Shown here: one piece after another, positions 33,235 through 61,042 of the stretch
Layout of the letters: every line of letters starts with the position of its first letter
Position numbering within the stretch: the first letter of the stretch is position 1
Source: Geobacter sp.
GTDB taxonomy: Bacteria; Desulfobacterota; Desulfuromonadia; Geobacterales; Geobacteraceae
Reading direction: 5' to 3'
Assembly (NCBI GenBank): GCA_016177775.1
Contig: JACOUQ010000013.1
Location: 1 to 64,000 of the forward strand
Length of the DNA stretch: 64,000 nucleotides
Notes under the pieces: model-generated
The model's input: only the letters and a program-made list of their open reading frames with translations
What the model was told of the DNA's origin: nothing
Databases searched by the model: none
Made by a program: the position numbers and the translations under genes

Positions 33235-34202
33235 AAAAAATTTCCGTCATTATACCGGTAAAGCCGGGTGGAGCTGTGAAGGCCATTGGGCCGCTGATGG
33301 GCGCGGACTACCCTGCCGATGCGTTCGAGGTGCTTGTAGCGGAGGGACGCTCTCCCAGCAGCCAGCGAAACGAGGCGGCACGCATGGCTTCAGGCGAGCT
33401 TCTCTACTTTCTCGATGATGATTCAATGGCCCCTCCCGATGCCCTGTTGCGCATTTCCCGCCATTTCGATGCCACTGGTGTCGTCGCTGTCGGGGGGCCT
33501 TCGTTGACGCCTGCCACTGACTCTTCATTACAACGGGCCTTCGGCTTGGCCTTTGCCTCCATTTTCGGCGGAGGGGGGGTACGGACGCGCTATTGGAAAA
33601 CGGGCAGGGCAAGATCGACCGGCGACCACGAACTCATACTCTGCAATCTCAGCTTTCGGCGCGAGCAATTCCTCGACCATGGAGGCTTCGACGAGCGGCT
33701 CTATCCCAACGAGGAGAACGAGCTTATGGACCGGCTCGTCAAGTCGGGAGGGACCCTCATCCACGATCCCGACCTTGCCGTTAGCCGCAGCCAGCGTCCC
33801 ACCTTCCGGGCGTTCGTGAGACAGCTTTTCACCTACGGCAGGGGGCGTGGAGAACAGAGCCGGATCAGCGGCTCGATCAAGCCGATGGCGCTCGTGCCCG
33901 CACTCTTTCTCCTGTATCTGACATCCGTGCCAGTCGTGGGCAAGCCGATTTACTCGATTCCGCTTTTGTGCTATCTAATATTGAACGTGATATTTTCCGT
34001 CCTGGAAGCCGGCCGGGGTGGATCTCCCAATCTTTCCCTCCGCCTTCTCGCGATATTCCCGACCTTTCATCTCTGTTATGGCGCCGGAGTCATGGTAGGG
34101 CTGGCATTTCCCCGCTACCGCACGCAGCGCGAATGCGGGGAGGTTATGGTGAGGCGGGTGAAAGAATTCGGGGGCTGGGGACCAGGGGCCGGTGAACGGT
34201 AA
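33228..34202 (+). CDS. GT2 family glycosyltransferase
   Basis: The 324-residue enzyme starts ISVIIPVKPGG. It lacks the usual DDGS box but has SQRNEAARMASGELLYFLDDDSMAPP (the DxD region near residue 62) and acceptor-side YPNEENELMDRLVKSGG. Two hydrophobic segments near 220-290 suggest membrane association. The C-terminal residues (GGWGPGAGER) are encoded by the 7-bp array that overlaps its stop. Sugar specificity is unknown. Confidence 0.8.
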   Translation: MVKKISVIIPVKPGGAVKAIGPLMGADYPADAFEVLVAEGRSPSSQRNEAARMASGELLYFLDDDSMAPPDALLRISRHFDATGVVAVGGPSLTPATDSSLQRAFGLAFASIFGGGGVRTRYWKTGRARSTGDHELILCNLSFRREQFLDHGGFDERLYPNEENELMDRLVKSGGTLIHDPDLAVSRSQRPTFRAFVRQLFTYGRGRGEQSRISGSIKPMALVPALFLLYLTSVPVVGKPIYSIPLLCYLILNVIFSVLEAGRGGSPNLSLRLLAIFPTFHLCYGAGVMVGLAFPRYRTQRECGEVMVRRVKEFGGWGPGAGER

Positions 34203-34290
34203 AACCGCCGACATCTTTAGAATCACGCCGAGCTGTGGCGGGAGGGATTTTGAGAACTTGCCGGTCCCCGATCCCCGGTCCCCAGTCCCG
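34170..34290. repeat. Facing 7-bp arrays (GGGGACC type)
   Basis: Forward units GGGGGCT, GGGGACC, AGGGGCC, GGTGAAC, GGTAAAA occupy 34170-34204. Facing units GGTCCCC, GATCCCC, GGTCCCC, AGTCCCG occupy 34263-34290. The period is exactly 7 on both sides. The forward side includes the stop of the upstream GT2 gene. The facing side ends just before the ribosome site of the next gene. Confidence 0.85.
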
Positions 34291-34306
34291 GCCTTTAGGA
34301 GTCAAA

Positions 34307-35278
34307 GTGGACCTGAGCATCGTCGTACCAATTTATAACGAAGAAGAGAACATCCCGGAATTGCACCGGCACATTGCCGAGGCGCTGGATGCGAGCGGCC
34401 TCGATTACGAGGTTGTCCTGGTGGATGACGGCTCTACCGACCACTCCTTTTCACTGTTGAAGGAAATTGCCGGCAAGGACCCACGGGTCAAGGTTATCCG
34501 CTTCCGCCGCAATTTCGGCCAGACCGCGGCCATGGCGGCCGGCTTCGACGCGGCCCGCGGCGAAGTGGTGGTGCCGATGGACGGCGACCTCCAGAACGAT
34601 CCGGCTGACATCCCACTCCTGATGGCCAGGATCCGCGAGGGGTACGACGTGGTTTCGGGCTGGCGCAAGGACCGGCAGGACACCTTCATCAACCGCCGTC
34701 TCCCGTCCATAATTGCAAATTCCCTGATTTCCCGCATGACCGGAGTCCACCTCCACGACTACGGCTGCACCCTCAAGGCTTACCGCCGCGAGGTGCTGGA
34801 GGGGATCAACCTTTACGGCGAGATGCACCGTTTCGTCCCGGCCCTGGCCTCCCAGGTGGGGGCGCGGGTCACCGAAATGCCGGTCCGCCATCATCCGCGG
34901 CTCCACGGCGTCAGCAAATACGGCATCTCCCGCACCATGCGGGTCGTCCTCGACCTGATGACGGTCAAGTTCCTCCTCTCCTATTCCACCAAACCGATCC
35001 AACTCTTCGGCAAGTGGGGGATATACACCCTGGCTGCCTCCTTCCTTACCGGCGGCGCCACCCTCTACATGAAGCTGTTCGAGCATATGAGCATGAACAG
35101 GAACCCGCTCCTGATCCTCACCGGCTTTCTCCTCTTCATGGGTGTGCAGTTCATCGTCCTGGGGCTTCTGGGTGAGCTCAACGCCCGCACTTACTACGAG
35201 GCGCAAGCAAAGCCCATTTACGTGATTCGCGAGCGAATCAACGTTGGGGACCGGGGACCGGGGACCGGGGACCGGTAA
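34307..35278 (+). CDS. GT2 family polyprenyl-phosphate glycosyltransferase with TM anchor
   Basis: Start GTG 34307 has AGGAG 7 nt upstream; the frame is open further 5' only through repeat sequence. The 323 residues contain LSIVVPIYNEEENIPEL, LVDDGSTDHS, MDGDLQNDPADIP (catalytic DxD) and two C-terminal TM helices, the plan of ArnC/GtrB/DPM-type enzymes that load a sugar on undecaprenyl phosphate. The last residues (GDRGPGTGDR) are encoded by four GGGGACC repeats. Confidence 0.88.
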   Translation: MDLSIVVPIYNEEENIPELHRHIAEALDASGLDYEVVLVDDGSTDHSFSLLKEIAGKDPRVKVIRFRRNFGQTAAMAAGFDAARGEVVVPMDGDLQNDPADIPLLMARIREGYDVVSGWRKDRQDTFINRRLPSIIANSLISRMTGVHLHDYGCTLKAYRREVLEGINLYGEMHRFVPALASQVGARVTEMPVRHHPRLHGVSKYGISRTMRVVLDLMTVKFLLSYSTKPIQLFGKWGIYTLAASFLTGGATLYMKLFEHMSMNRNPLLILTGFLLFMGVQFIVLGLLGELNARTYYEAQAKPIYVIRERINVGDRGPGTGDR

Positions 35279-35757
35279 AAGCGATAAAGGCAGGAACAAG
35301 TGGGTGGGGGAAGCTGTTATGCGGGATCACAAGGAGCTGGATGTCTGGAAAACTGGTGTTGGGCTGGTTAAGGAGGTATATGTCTTAACCAGAGAGTTCC
35401 CGAAAGAAGAGCTGTATGGTTTGACGAATCAATTGAGAAGGGCCGCGGTTTCCATCCCGTCCAATATAGCGGAGGGAGCGGCAAGGCAGACGAATAAGGA
35501 GTTTGTACAATTTCTTTATATTGCTCTCGGGTCGGTGGCCGAAGTTGAAACCCAGCTTGCCATTGCTCAAGAATTGCAATACGTCCCTATGGGTGAGACT
35601 CTGCTAGGTCGAGTCGCTTCTCTCCGAAAAATGCTGCACGGCCTGATCCGGCATTATCGTACCAAAGTGGATGCGAATGAATAGTTTTTCCCCGTCCCCG
35701 GTTTCCGATTCCGGTTCCCCGATCTTGCCGGTCCCCGGTCCCCGGTCCCCGGTCCCC
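35246..35757. repeat. Inverted 7-bp arrays enclosing a four-helix-bundle gene
   Basis: Four perfect GGGGACC copies (35246-35273) face four perfect GGTCCCC copies (35730-35757), with further degenerate units between 35694 and 35729. The 456 bp between them hold one complete gene, an IVS-family protein. The left array lies in the 3' end of the upstream GT2 gene and the right array in the 5' end of the downstream GT4 frame. The layout looks like a gene carried between inverted arms. Confidence 0.85.
35319..35684 (+). CDS. Four-helix-bundle protein, 23S rRNA intervening-sequence (IVS) family
   Basis: The 121 residues have the family signature: HKELDVWKTGVGLVKEVY, LTNQLRRAAVSIPSNIAEGA, KEFVQFLYIALGSVAEVETQL. 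Members are encoded in IVS elements of 23S rRNA in Leptospira and Coxiella and are related to the Avd accessory protein of diversity-generating retroelements. Basic helical bundles in this family can bind nucleic acid. The molecular role here is unknown. ATG 35319 is chosen; upstream in-frame codons are repeat sequence. It is bracketed by inverted 7-bp arrays and has a paralog at 37.9 kb in the same setting. Confidence 0.88.
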   Translation: MRDHKELDVWKTGVGLVKEVYVLTREFPKEELYGLTNQLRRAAVSIPSNIAEGAARQTNKEFVQFLYIALGSVAEVETQLAIAQELQYVPMGETLLGRVASLRKMLHGLIRHYRTKVDANE

Positions 35758-36930
35758 AGCACGCTCCGCGTGCTGATGCTCGCCCCCACCCCCTACTTTG
35801 CCGACCGGGGGTGCCATGTCCGGATCTACGAAGAGGCGCGGGCCCTTATCAACCTCGGGCATCAGGTCCGAATCGTCACCTACCACATCGGCCGCGACAT
35901 GCCGGGCATACCCACGGTCCGCATCCCCAGAATCCCCTGGTACAAAAAGCTCGTCGCCGGCCCCTCCTGGCACAAGCCGTACCTGGACCTCCTCCTCTTC
36001 TTCACGGCGCTCCGCGAGGCGCGCGCTTTCCGCCCCGACATCATCCACGCCCACCTTCACGAGGGGGCCTTCATCGGGATGCTTCTTAAGCGGCTGCTTC
36101 GCGTCCCCATAGTCTTCGACTGCCAGGGGAGCCTGACCGCCGAGATCATCGACCACGGCTTCATTCGCAAGGGTGGGGTGCTGCACAGGCTTTTCGGCCT
36201 TCTGGAGGACCTCATCAACCGGCAGGCCGACTTCATCATCGCCAGCTCTACCCCCGGCGCCCGCGACCTGCTGGAGAACCGGGGCGTACCCCCCGAGCGG
36301 GTGCTGGGCCTTATCGACGGGGTGGACACCGAGATTTTCCGCCCCTATCCGAAGGACGAGGCACGCCGCGCTCTCGGGCTCCCGCCAGACAGTCCAGTCG
36401 TGGTCTTCCTCGGCATCCTCAACCGTTACCAGGGTGTGGATCTCTTGCTGGAATCGGTAGAACTCCTCAAAAAGCGCGGCACGGCCCCGCACTTCCTCAT
36501 CATGGGATTCCCGGAGGAGAAATACCGGCAAAAGGCGGAAGATATAGGGGTTGCCGACGGCATCACCTTCACTGGCCGGATCGATTACGCGCAGGCGCCG
36601 CTCTTTCTCTGCGCCGGCGACGTGGCCCTCTCCCCGAAGATCTCGGCCACCGAGGCCAACGGCAAACTCTTCAACTACCTGGCCTGTGGCCTCCCGACGG
36701 TCGTCTTCGACACCCCGGTCAACCGCGAGATCCTGGGGGACGCCGGGGTTTACGCCCGTTTTGGAGATGCTGTTGACTTTGCCGACAAGTTGGAAGGGCT
36801 CTTGCAGGATAGCGCGCTGCGGGCCGTTCTTGCCGCCAGAAGCCGCGAAAAGGCGGTGCATGAGCATTCCTGGGACGCGCGGGCAAAACGGTTGGCGGAA
36901 ATCTATGCCAACCTGGTGAATGGTGAATAG
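35671..36930 (+). CDS. GT4 family glycosyltransferase
   Basis: A two-domain GT-B enzyme with N-terminal APTPYFADRGCHVRIYEEA and C-terminal KISATEANGKLFNYLACGLPTVVFDTP (donor-binding E). I keep the open frame from 35671, but the first 33 or so codons are array sequence (…PVPGPRSPVPS). The conserved fold begins at LRVLMLAPTP, so initiation at GTG 35770 is possible, although no ribosome site is seen there. It overlaps the IVS-family gene by 14 bp. Sugar specificity is unknown. Confidence 0.85.
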   Translation: MRMNSFSPSPVSDSGSPILPVPGPRSPVPSTLRVLMLAPTPYFADRGCHVRIYEEARALINLGHQVRIVTYHIGRDMPGIPTVRIPRIPWYKKLVAGPSWHKPYLDLLLFFTALREARAFRPDIIHAHLHEGAFIGMLLKRLLRVPIVFDCQGSLTAEIIDHGFIRKGGVLHRLFGLLEDLINRQADFIIASSTPGARDLLENRGVPPERVLGLIDGVDTEIFRPYPKDEARRALGLPPDSPVVVFLGILNRYQGVDLLLESVELLKKRGTAPHFLIMGFPEEKYRQKAEDIGVADGITFTGRIDYAQAPLFLCAGDVALSPKISATEANGKLFNYLACGLPTVVFDTPVNREILGDAGVYARFGDAVDFADKLEGLLQDSALRAVLAARSREKAVHEHSWDARAKRLAEIYANLVNGE

Positions 36931-37794: not shown

Positions 37795-37872
37795 GCGAGA
37801 GGGTGGAGCGAGAGTCGGGAGCGAAAGGGGAAAGCGAAAGTTAGAGGCGAAAGAGAAGGGCGATAGGAGAGG
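37795..37872 (+). repeat. Six 13-bp tandem units upstream of the second IVS-family gene
   Basis: GCGA starts at 37795, 37808, 37821, 37834, 37847 and 37860, exactly 13 bp apart. Units include GCGAGAGGGTGGA, GCGAGAGTCGGGA and GCGAAAGGGGAAA. The array fills the gap between the GT2 stop (37788) and the IVS-family start (37880). Confidence 0.9.
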
Positions 37873-37879
37873 CCGGAAT

Positions 37880-38248
37880 ATGAAGCGTGCTGCCAATAAT
37901 CACAAGGACCTTCTGGTATGGCGCATGAGCATGGAGCTTGCCGAGATTGTTTATAAACTTACGGAATCGATGCCTTCGTCCGAACAATTCGGTCTTACCT
38001 CGCAAATGCGCCGGGCAGTGGTATCAGTCCCTTCCAACATTGCAGAGGGGGCTGCACGAAATACCAAAAAAGAATTTGTGCAATTTCTCCATATTGCGCT
38101 CGGTTCGCTTGCGGAACTGGAAACGCAATTGCTTCTTGCAGAAAAGTTAAAATTTTTGGAGAATGTTCCTGTGGGAAAAGCAAACCAAGTGAAGCAGCTT
38201 CTTCTTGGGTTGATCGTAAATGCGAGGGGTAGAAGCGTGAGTAAGTAG
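37880..38248 (+). CDS. Four-helix-bundle protein, 23S rRNA IVS family (paralog)
   Basis: The 122 residues read NHKDLLVWRMSMELAEIVYK, LTSQMRRAVVSVPSNIAEGA, KEFVQFLHIALGSLAELETQ. It is clearly paralogous to the 35.3-kb copy but diverged, so not a recent duplicate. The gene sits between a forward 13-bp array and inverted arrays of the same 13-mer. Its last codons (GRSVSK and stop) are already inside the downstream array. Function is unknown; association with repeats is the informative context. Confidence 0.88.
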   Translation: MKRAANNHKDLLVWRMSMELAEIVYKLTESMPSSEQFGLTSQMRRAVVSVPSNIAEGAARNTKKEFVQFLHIALGSLAELETQLLLAEKLKFLENVPVGKANQVKQLLLGLIVNARGRSVSK

Positions 38249-38371
38249 CGTGAGTGAAGGGCATGAGTGAAGGGCGAGATTTTCGACGCATTTGATTCAC
38301 GCTTTACACCCCCTCACGCTCCAAACTATCGCCTCTAGCTCTCGCTCCATACTTTCGCTCCATACTCGCGC
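38235..38371. repeat. Facing 13-bp arrays downstream of the second IVS-family gene
   Basis: Forward units start at 38235, 38248, 38261 and 38274 (GCGTGAGTAAGTA, GCGTGAGTGAAGG, GCATGAGTGAAGG, GCGAGATT). Inverted units end at 38319, 38332, 38345, 38358 and 38371 (CTCACGC, CTATCGC, CTCTCGC, CTTTCGC, CTCGCGC), all 13 bp apart. With the array at 37795 they enclose the IVS-family gene. The ABC permease start follows at 38385. Confidence 0.9.
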
Positions 38372-38384
38372 TTCAGGAGAAACA

Positions 38385-39211: not shown

Positions 39212-39492
39212 GGGGAATGGGGAATGGGGAAAAGCTCAAAACCTGTCTCTCGCCCGCTCGCTGGCGCTCGCTAGAGCACGCAGAGGTCGCAGAGGAAGGC
39301 AAAAGACAAAGAAAAGTTTTCTTGGGTTTTTAAAACCATAAAAAGGTTTAAAGCAGTTCTCAGCGTACTCTGCGGGCTCTAGAGAGCGAAGCGAACGGGC
39401 GAGAGACAAAAAGGTTTTCCAGCCGGCCGATGGTGAGAAAAGGGTGCAAGGAATGAGGATTCGTTCGCTTTTTTCCCCATTCACCATTCACG
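39212..39492. repeat. Outer 7-bp arrays around a palindromic element
   Basis: Forward GGGGAAT, GGGGAAT, GGGGAAA (39212-39232) face ATTCACC, ATTCACG plus TTCCCC (39472-39492). They enclose the 163-bp palindromic element at 39245-39407, so two repeat classes are nested. Together they fill most of the 407-bp gap between wzm and the toxin module. No gene is seen in the gap. Confidence 0.75.
39245..39407. repeat. Palindromic element copy 1 (GTCTCTCGCCCG ends)
   Basis: It begins GTCTCTCGCCCGCTCGCT and ends in the imperfect reverse complement (AAGCGAACGGGCGAGAGAC). The arms are about 42 bp, with internal CGCAGAGGT/CGCAGAGGA 9-bp units and an AT-rich centre. A second copy lies at 59875-60031; the right arms of the two copies differ at only about two positions. 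No open frame or transposase is present. Confidence 0.88.
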
Positions 39493-39616
39493 GTATCTGG
39501 TTTCAGCGTTTTATGGCTTTTTTTGAAAGAAACGGGTATCATAATGAAGTCTAGCCCCTCCACAAATATAGTGGGAGAGCGCTTGTTGTTCTTCGCGTGG
39601 GAAAGAGATCGTCCTT

Positions 39617-39874
39617 ATGCAGACAAAAACAAAATATGAAGAAATGGTGCTGAACGAAGTTCGGAAAATGCCTAGGGATGCATTGCCTCAAGTTGTCAGG
39701 ATGCTTCGTTCATTTCAGGAGGGCATCAGTATTGTCAGAAGCCGAGCTGAAAAGAAGACGCCGGATACCGGCCTTTGCGGCATATGGCAGGATGATCGCA
39801 GCCCGGATGAGATCATCGAGGATATTCATGCTCACCGAACCGGCTTTGGAAAGCGGAGCAGGAGAATAATATGA
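39617..39874 (+). CDS. Small protein of a PIN-toxin module (antitoxin candidate 1)
   Basis: An 85-residue protein: an N-terminal helical part (KYEEMVLNEVRKMPRDALPQ), a charged middle, and a C-terminal LCGIWQDDRSPDEIIEDIH. This tail pattern is common in small proteins encoded before PIN-domain toxins and may bind the toxin. The stop overlaps the next start (ATGA). DNA-binding is not evident. Confidence 0.6.
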   Translation: MQTKTKYEEMVLNEVRKMPRDALPQVVRMLRSFQEGISIVRSRAEKKTPDTGLCGIWQDDRSPDEIIEDIHAHRTGFGKRSRRII

Positions 39875-40113
39875 AAGCCAATACCATTGAATATGTCGGT
39901 GAATTGCTCAGTGACGGACATATTTCGATCCCTGGCAATATTAAAAGAAGGCTCGGTAAGAAAAAATATCGAATAAATGTAACCATAGAACTAGAAGAGA
40001 CTGAAAAGGGTTTCGGCCGCGGATTTTCATTCGGCGAGGTGAGGAAACTGCTGGCTCCCATTCGTGGAGAGCTTGCGCAAGACGTAATTTCAGACCGTGA
40101 GGACCGGTTGTGA
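39871..40113 (+). CDS. Small hypothetical protein of a PIN-toxin module (antitoxin candidate 2)
   Basis: An 80-residue protein with an N-terminal GHISIPGNIKRRLGKKKYRINVTIEL stretch reminiscent of AbrB/MazE-type swapped-hairpin antitoxins (the SIP…IR.LG pattern) and an acidic C-terminus. It overlaps both neighbours by 4 bp, so three proteins are translationally coupled. It is the better candidate for the DNA-binding autorepressor, but recognition is by pattern only. Confidence 0.6.
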   Translation: MKANTIEYVGELLSDGHISIPGNIKRRLGKKKYRINVTIELEETEKGFGRGFSFGEVRKLLAPIRGELAQDVISDREDRL

Positions 40114-40556
40114 GCAAAAGATACTTTTTCGACACGAGCGCATTGGTCAAGCTCTATCGTCAGGAAAAGGGAACCGATGCGCTTGATGATGTCATGAGCC
40201 GCGAGCAACCTGTGTTGGTGATTTCAGATTTATCGGTTATTGAAATCATATCTGCTTTTGCGAAAAAGGTTCGGTCCAGGGAAATAAACGACAAAATATT
40301 CAATAAGGCAGTTTCCGCATTTGAAAAAGATATTACATTGTTTGAGGTGATTGAGGTCGACTCCACTGTTAAGTCCGGAGCCATTTCATTATTGAAAAAA
40401 TTGGCTACTAAACAGGGCCTGCGCACCCTTGATGCTATACAGCTCTCGGCGGTAATGACCGCGCATGGCAAGAAGCCGATCGATCTTTTTGTGCTTGCGG
40501 ACAGATTGCTTGCGGATGTCGCAAAGGCAGAAGGGTTGAATGTGTTATGTGTCTGA
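40110..40556 (+). CDS. PIN-domain (VapC-like) ribonuclease toxin
   Basis: The 148 residues carry the PIN acidic set: Asp in FFDTSALVKLY (about residue 8), Glu in LSVIEIISAFAKK (about 45), Asp in LRTLDAIQLS (about 111), and Asp in FVLADRLLADVAKAEG. VapC-like proteins cleave tRNA or rRNA when freed from antitoxin. It is the third gene of a coupled module lodged between wzm and wzt, with lower GC than the flanking export genes. Confidence 0.82.
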   Translation: MSKRYFFDTSALVKLYRQEKGTDALDDVMSREQPVLVISDLSVIEIISAFAKKVRSREINDKIFNKAVSAFEKDITLFEVIEVDSTVKSGAISLLKKLATKQGLRTLDAIQLSAVMTAHGKKPIDLFVLADRLLADVAKAEGLNVLCV

Positions 40557-40700
40557 GGTCTGCCCGTCCTTCTCATTCCCCGTTCACCTTTAGTCCCATG
40601 TATTGTCGGGTCATTCCCCATTCCCCGGTGTCTAACTCTTCACAGGGTTCAAGCCGTTTACAAGGTTCAAACAATTCACCATTCACCCTTCACCATTCAC
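40557..40700. repeat. Inverted-orientation 7-bp arrays upstream of the pseudopilin remnant
   Basis: CAC recurs at 40677, 40684, 40691 and 40698 (ATTCACC/CTTCACC units, period 7). Looser ATTCCCC and GTTCACC units start near 40575. They occupy exactly the place where a prepilin leader should be encoded. Confidence 0.7.
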
Positions 40701-59874: not shown

Positions 59875-60031
59875 GTCTCTCGCCCGCTCACTGCGTTCGC
59901 TAGAGCACGCAGAGAACACAGAGAAAAGCCTTAAATGCTTTTATTGTTTCAAGCCCTGGAATTTTTCTTTCTTTTTGCCTTCCTCTGCGAACTCTGCGGG
60001 CTCTAGAGAGCTAAGCGAACGGGCGAGAGAC
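59875..60031. repeat. Palindromic element copy 2 (GTCTCTCGCCCG ends)
   Basis: The left arm starts GTCTCTCGCCCGCTCACT and the right arm ends AAGCGAACGGGCGAGAGAC. It has the same ends and internal CGCAGAGAA/CACAGAGAA units as the copy at 39245-39407; the centre differs. It fills the gmd-fcl gap, and fcl starts 19 bp after it. Confidence 0.88.
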
Positions 60032-60049
60032 AGTGCTTGTGGGGGTTGC

Positions 60050-61042
60050 ATGAACAAAGATGCGAAAATTTATGTGGCAGGGCACAGGGGACTGGTAGGC
60101 TCGGCCTTGGTCAGGAAGCTCGAAGCGGAAGGTTTCGGCAATCTGCTGCTCAAGACGAGCAGCGAGCTCGACCTGCGTGACCAGGCTGCCGTCACCGAAT
60201 TCTTCGCGGCGGAAAAGCCCGACTACGTATTCCTGGCCGCCGCCAAGGTCGGCGGGATCGTCGCCAACAGCACCTACCCGGCCGAGTTTATCTACGACAA
60301 CCTCCAGATCCAGAACAACATCATCCATAAAGCGTATCTCACCGGGGTGAAGCGCCTCCTCTTCCTGGGGAGCACCTGCATATATCCGAAGCTGGCGCCC
60401 CAGCCGATGAAGGAGGAGTACCTCCTGACCGGGCCGCTGGAGCCGACCAATTCCCCCTATGCGATTGCCAAGATCGCCGGAATAGAGATGTGCCGCTCCT
60501 ACAACCGCCAGTACGGCACGAAATTCCTGGCCGCTATGCCGACCAATCTCTATGGCCCGAACGATAATTTCGACCTCACGACCTCCCACGTCCTGCCTGC
60601 GCTGCTGCGCAAGTTTCATGAACAGAAGGTGAGGAGTGAGGAGAGAGGGGTGAGGAGTGACGACAAAGTCGTCATCTGGGGCACTGGCACTCCCTGCCGC
60701 GAGTTCCTCCACGTGGACGACCTGGCCGACGCCTCCCTCTTCCTGATGAAACTTCCTGAAGATGTTTACTCCTCACTCCTCACCCCTCACTCCTCACCCG
60801 CCTTAATAAACATAGGCACCGGCGAGGAAGTCACCATCCGCGACCTGGCGCTTCTGATCAAAGAGGTGGTCGGCTTCGAGGGGGAGCTGGTGTTCGATGC
60901 AAGCAAGCCGGATGGAACGCCGCGGAAGCTCTGCGACGTATCGCGGCTCCACTCCCTAGGCTGGTGCCACAGGACAGGACTGGAGGAGGGATTGAGGATG
61001 ACGTACGAGTGGTATCTGAAGGCTGTGAGCCGCCAGGATTGA
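60050..61042 (+). CDS. fcl: GDP-L-fucose synthase
   Basis: Epimerase/reductase completing GDP-L-fucose. 330 residues: [62 protein letters not shown] (YxxxK), [18 protein letters not shown], and [22 protein letters not shown] 60050 is chosen because the upstream frame is palindromic-element sequence. Two surface loops (about residues 193-206 and 240-250) are built from 7-bp repeats that are reverse complements of each other. Catalytic regions are intact. Confidence 0.94.
60629..60800. repeat. Reverse-complementary 7-bp arrays at two loops of fcl
   Basis: GTGAGGA, GTGAGGA, GAGAGGG, GTGAGGA, GTGACGA (60629-60663) face ACTCCTC, ACTCCTC, ACCCCTC, ACTCCTC (60768-60795). Conserved enzyme sequence lies between them. 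Both arrays are in frame and code for loop residues. Confidence 0.9.

Follow-up and report, generated by a model that had tools for sequence, protein, structure and literature searches.

What places a small gene, alone between two facing arrays of seven-base repeats, in the middle of a pair of glycosyltransferase (sugar-transferase) genes? The locus lies in a 64,000-nt stretch of a Geobacter contig (JACOUQ010000013.1, positions 1 to 64,000), here called the window, where an insert of ~500 bases with one small gene separates the two glycosyltransferase genes. The gene belongs to the IVS (S23p) family. To our knowledge this family, also annotated "four helix bundle protein", is widespread in bacterial genomes without known function, and we know of no agreed origin for the rRNA intervening sequences (IVSs). 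Separate explanations, as G-quadruplex, regulatory or slippage sequences, have been given for the dispersed heptamer repeats of several phyla.

Anatomy of the insert

The preliminary description of this locus reported facing GGGGACC and GGTCCCC arrays around one lone gene, and this was confirmed: each array is 100% periodic, and the IVS gene is the sole protein gene enclosed (Table 1). The arms form a 39-nt inverted repeat of 92% complementarity, and the frames of the upstream (GT2) and downstream (GT4) glycosyltransferase genes both extend in frame into the arrays. The window holds 13 period-7 arrays of such strength; in ten simulated windows there was not one. When the whole insert was folded as RNA, the minimum free energy structure paired both arms (z -6.6); an Rfam search of the window returned no match.

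The IVS protein matches PF05635 (E 1.4e-37, 125.6 bits, curated cut-off 24) and TIGR02436 (E 8.9e-37, 128.6 bits, curated cut-off 33.8), and its nearest solved structure is 2GSC (Xcc0516; E 1.5e-25, five chains). GC content of its gene is 0.495, versus 0.61-0.64 in the glycosyltransferase genes on either side.

Table 1. Coordinates of the window's IVS genes, their arms and neighboring features
Feature	Position	Strand	Basis or remark
Gene-less candidate pair, GGGGACC (34177-34183) facing a GGTCCCC-type array (34261-34289)	34177..34289	.	next operon junction
Upstream glycosyltransferase gene (GT2)	34235..35278	+	C-terminus translates into left array (INVGDRGPGTGDR*)
Left arm, 4.3 perfect GGGGACC units	35246..35275	+	repeat and inverted-repeat detection
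IVS-family (S23p, four-helix-bundle) gene, 121 aa	35319..35684	+	PF05635/TIGR02436 profile matches
Downstream glycosyltransferase gene (GT4)	35671..36930	+	open frame crosses right arm
Degenerate heptamer stretch, inward extension of right arm	35688..35720	-	inverted-repeat comparison
Right arm, 4.3 perfect GGTCCCC units, reverse complement of left arm	35728..35757	-	repeats; RNA fold pairs arms
Second IVS element, degenerate left arm, GGAGCGA-type units	37804..37853	+	flank alignment
Second IVS-family gene, 122 aa, GC 0.466	37880..38248	+	
Second IVS element, degenerate right arm	38326..38375	-	flank alignment

A second IVS gene is found 2.5 kb downstream of the first and has degenerate facing arms around it; perfect arrays are particular to the window copy, not general to the class. 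Two other stretches of the window have facing arrays. At 39212-40626, ~1.4 kb lies between GGGGAAT and ATTCCCC arrays; its small genes look like an antitoxin/PIN toxin pair, and the same stretch holds a gene-less CGCAGAG-type repeat of the putative GxxExxY kind (see below). At 60629-60797, GTGAGGA and TCCTCAC arrays with ~107 bp between them fall within an intact frame (59975-61042) resembling an epimerase gene; since that pair sits inside an intact open frame, a facing pair can be tolerated in coding sequence.

IVS genes and facing arrays across genomes

We searched 58 relatives (Geobacterales) with PF05635 and read 73 IVS loci. A strict detector found a period-7 array within 150 bp on both sides in 42 and on at least one side in 54; some of the loci that escape it have units of 6, 8 or 9 nt, or arms that have degenerated. 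To score complementarity, the left flank was aligned with the right flank in reverse complement, and a score of at least 30 counted as strong. This level was reached by 53/72 Geobacterales IVS genes, versus 4/701 other ORFs (Fisher p about 1e-60). The control comprised 703 ORFs in 858 kb, sampled as stretches of the same relatives' genomes; six of the 703 reached 30, two of these being IVS genes themselves. Median scores at the Geobacterales IVS flanks were 39 for true pairs and 15 for mismatched left/right pairs. Top among non-IVS ORFs were two carB-like large-subunit ORFs (L097 12781-19414), at 84 and 104. RAYT genes served as another control, and their flanks bear REP-type hairpins more than tandem heptamers.

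A wider set of 80 genome loci of many phyla and 18 viral contigs gave 92 usable loci outside Geobacterales. Here the median score was 32 and 54/92 loci reached 30, versus 1.3% of mismatched pairs. On cyanobacterial plasmids, eight of the ten IVS loci inspected first are enclosed by facing arrays; these ten include copies that separate cas6 from cas4, and one ribonucleotide reductase gene from the other. In Xanthomonadaceae, a conserved junction, between what we read from the translated ends of its neighbors as putative accB and accC, hosts IVS genes enclosed by facing GGGAATC-type arrays; their protein is closely related to Xcc0516. None of the examined IVS loci had 23S rRNA flanks by motif search, and no IVS gene was found in phage records.

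The preliminary description had called for such a survey and had held that IVS genes elsewhere without arrays would speak against its reading; the survey bears it out, and array-less genes are a minority. Clear facing arrays are missing around roughly one in four IVS genes of Geobacterales and ~40% elsewhere, which would fit decay or domestication.

GxxExxY (PDDEXK_3, PF13366) genes of the relatives (L116-L145) also have facing tandem arrays, of 8-10-nt units (examples are CACGGAGA, CGCAGATGAA and CACGAAAGA), and 16/30 of their loci reach the complementarity threshold. These are possibly a second element class, built alike.

Units vary between IVS loci; in 43/64 the right and left units are reverse complements with at most one mismatch. 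Different IVS genes within a single genome carry units unrelated to one another, so the idea that the host genome sets the unit was rejected. Between genomes, units are more alike the higher the protein identity (Mantel 0/500). Orthology as the only cause of shared units was excluded by restricting the comparison to pairs with non-homologous flanks: at protein identity of at least 0.65 the mean unit distance is 0.50 of 7, with 14/14 within one mismatch, and at identity below 0.45 it is about 3 (Mantel 0/1000). A single dominant clade behind the co-variation was likewise rejected, as the relationship persists on re-test after removal of the GTTC clade; it is also present in the set from other phyla. 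Unit and protein change in concert, so the element's own, putatively pentameric, protein probably uses the array as its recognition site.

Filled sites, empty sites and gene-less pairs

GT2 and GT4 are adjacent in all 30 loci that were read for their junction, the window's own included. An IVS gene lies between them in five (G000, G007, G008, G014 and G035), with arrays on both sides in the first four and, by the strict detector, on the right only in G035. A further locus, G019, read apart from the 30, has an IVS gene and both arrays at the same junction. Facing arrays without a gene are found there in G002 and G004, and the strict detector finds no array in the remaining 23, where the two genes mostly abut or overlap and a few have a longer spacer of other sequence. 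Most gene-less relatives are then without an array at the window's junction, the outcome that favors an insertion in the empty-site comparison proposed earlier for this locus. At the filled sites the unit has drifted with both arms in step, giving GGGGACC, GGGACCA, CGGGAAG and GGAACTC types. The loop of the G004 pair contains ATGCGGG, which are the first codons of the window gene (a short match), and there are hints that this pair may have arisen by internal deletion.

Other junctions have other occupants. A second is occupied in G028 by an IVS element and in G010 by a GxxExxY gene flanked by CACGAAT arrays; G020 shows such arrays without a gene. At a third, the IVS element of G032 stands in place of the RAYT and REPs found in G012 and G017; homology of G032 to the latter two both stops and resumes at the outer ends of the arrays, just outside them. 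It looks as if small elements share a few operon junctions as landing sites. Overall, the junctions in these six genomes (L019, L091, L344, L345, L357 and L358) host IVS, GxxExxY or RAYT/REP, depending on the species. A dispersed repeat of ~85 nt was also noted within the genus, with dozens of copies per genome (L091 320-410, and many places in G012-G034).

Recent, clean insertions were seen on cyanobacterial plasmids. Among conjugative plasmids that are ~97% identical and differ by one IVS element, the empty site reads AAAAAGTAATTAACAAAT and the filled site AAAAA-GTAAT-AAATCAGAATTCAG ... gene ... CTGAGTTCTTCTTT-GTAAT-TAACAAAT, with GTAAT duplicated. In a second plasmid family the empty site reads AGGTTCTAGGTTATG and the filled site, one G short, AGG-TTCTA-AATCAGGAG ... 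gene ... CTTCTGGA-TTCTA-GTTATG, with TTCTA duplicated. These two target duplications are perfect, and both come from the same element family; the chance of a 5-bp match at two given points there is about 0.002. A third junction has TAATG/TTATG, agreeing at 4 of 5 positions. Junctions L366, L374 and L368 showed no target duplication, and the empty site there holds different sequence or a short substitute. The marks of a DNA transposable element or MITE, namely inverted terminal repeats, empty sites and target duplication, are all seen, the duplications in cyanobacterial relatives and not for the window copy itself, whose flanks are too diverged. The cas6/cas4 interval, which holds an IVS element in Anabaena 90, is occupied in a Dolichospermum plasmid (L376) by a different inverted-repeat insert, with GTAGGTTGGGTTGACG ends.

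Facing arrays without a gene are common in the Geobacterales genomes studied. Tandem GGGGACY counts reach 13, 47, 62 and 79 where an IVS gene of this unit is present and have a median of 0 in other genomes (p 9e-4). Dispersed GTTCTA and GTTCAA arrays are likewise commoner beside the matching IVS gene (p 2e-3 and p 4e-6), and the control with swapped unit/gene combinations is weak (p 0.04 and 0.20). Gene-less facing arrays of matching unit are probably non-autonomous derivatives. The preliminary description had taken repeat-only pairs for non-autonomous relatives; the unit counts and the gene-less pairs in G002 and G004 support that reading short of proof, and since phylogeny confounds the count correlations we infer, rather than demonstrate, their mobilization in trans.

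Orientation is biased as well. Where both neighbors are co-directional, the IVS gene is in sense with them at 43/48 Geobacterales loci and 52/64 loci elsewhere; some of these loci are orthologous, which makes p-values for the bias optimistic. The bias could come from selection within operons or from an RNA intermediate.

A probable minimal mobile element and its relation to known systems

An IVS element is supported by the association of gene with arrays, their joint gain, the co-variation of unit with protein, the empty sites and the two 5-bp duplications. We consider it likely that the window's insert represents a minimal mobile element, consisting of one IVS/S23p gene between inverted arrays of ~7-nt units and inserting as a unit. 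Gene and arrays would enter between-gene junctions jointly, as one DNA segment of ~0.4-0.5 kb; a 5-bp target duplication would mark recent insertions, and copies would survive mostly in sense orientation inside operons. In RNA the arrays can pair into a long stem around the gene, as in 23S rRNA IVSs, and RNase III would be expected to cut that stem. The protein would bind its own heptamers, and gene-less pairs may be moved by elements elsewhere in the genome. The element encodes no transposase, nuclease or reverse transcriptase, the IVS gene being all it has; cutting and joining of DNA would then fall to an enzyme encoded outside it, and no helper transposase acting in trans was identified. 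A bolder version, to which we lean slightly less than halfway, would make these pan-bacterial minimal elements whose sole gene encodes a non-catalytic pentameric protein specific to its own fast-changing heptamer array; gene-less copies would spread in trans, and the elements would be the source of the Geobacter, Xanthomonas and Nostoc heptamers and the ancestor of 23S rRNA IVSs.

Facing heptamer arrays might instead be simple repeats that the host makes at gene ends, by slippage or through hairpins, with IVS genes settling inside them. Gene-less facing arrays are indeed common here and are on record elsewhere (PMC4692102, PMC2700814). However, other ORFs are almost never enclosed by facing arrays, arrays are absent from most gene-less sites at the window's junction and from the best plasmid empty sites, and the unit goes with the protein and not with the host genome, which makes such a habitat highly improbable. 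The order of events in which arrays come first and the gene later is rejected by the empty sites together with the unit/protein co-variation.

It is quite unlikely, too, that the element moves through RNA, its excised stem-loop being reverse-transcribed in trans with the IVS protein as an RNA chaperone, as Avd is in diversity-generating retroelements. The sense-strand bias (43:5 and 52:12), the long self-complementary RNA (z -6.6) and the kinship of IVS protein and Avd (PMC10053308) would suit this route; but the elements are without a reverse transcriptase, a constant 5-bp duplication (two cases) fits a staggered DNA cut, and purifying selection in operons would equally yield the bias. The IVS protein could also be a host regulator of dispersed heptamer arrays, in DNA or mRNA, the arrays at its own gene being autoregulatory. 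Earlier authors have proposed regulatory roles for heptamers (PMC2700814, PMC4679880), and unit-matched dispersed arrays do accompany the IVS gene. We hold this reading to be rather unlikely, as the sporadic distribution, a GC content below that of flanking genes, presence/absence polymorphism on plasmids and the substitution of other elements at shared junctions all look selfish, though regulation and a mobile element are not exclusive of each other.

IVS elements, as mobile DNA, look overlooked and very small. One element type would unite the S23p family, the rRNA IVSs and the dispersed heptamer repeats, and would help explain puzzling 7-base repeats elsewhere. The elements also offer a natural series of protein/DNA-word pairs, and because the heptamer changes with the protein, the question of recognition is directly testable.

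A general link of IVS genes to heptamer arrays did not appear in a search of mostly open-access papers, and priority is uncertain. Heptamers themselves have been described: tandem GGACCGG at 49 places in G. metallireducens (PMC2700814), GGGAATC, in convergent pairs, in Xanthomonas and GGGGA(C/T)T in Nostoc (PMC4692102), and TAACTGA in Beggiatoaceae (PMC4679880). They resemble ours in unit size, in near-identical units (GGGGACC; GGGAATC) and in their convergent pairs, but excerpts of those papers interpret them as G4, regulatory or slippage features, with no tie to IVS genes or to a gene-bearing mobile element.

REPIN/RAYT systems (PMC3116915) are similar in having compact inverted-repeat units, dispersed in trans and matched to one gene lineage that they flank. 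RAYTs, however, belong to the Y1 transposases and each REP is a single palindrome, whereas no catalytic fold is known for the IVS protein and the element's ends are tandem heptamers; the window protein matches PF05635 and, weakly, Avd only, which places it outside REPIN/RAYT. The Avd matches (NF033474, E 0.007; PF22296, E 0.004; PHROG Avd, E 9e-8; the profile models far below Avd cut-offs) mark a distant homolog of the Avd of diversity-generating retroelements, though the IVS element has neither the reverse transcriptase nor the template/variable repeats of those systems.

The closest comparison is the 23S rRNA IVS of Coxiella burnetii, a ~430-nt insert whose ends pair into a stem and which has been termed selfish and suspected mobile; tandem heptamers stand ahead of its S23p gene, but, as a point against the model, the S23p protein is apparently not made in Coxiella (PMC4990558). 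The preliminary description placed an IVS-like element between protein genes, and with arrays around most IVS genes, array-free empty sites, a unit that follows the protein and these Coxiella heptamers, that view has stood up. Because heptamers precede the S23p gene, on the 5' side at least, the analogy suggests that rRNA IVSs may be the same thing as the IVS elements between protein genes. Both have the same protein family and complementary ends that form a stem. The window element differs in lying between two glycosyltransferase genes and not inside a 23S rRNA gene, and the elements described here have long arrays on both sides, units that vary with lineage, and gene-less pairs dispersed through the genome.
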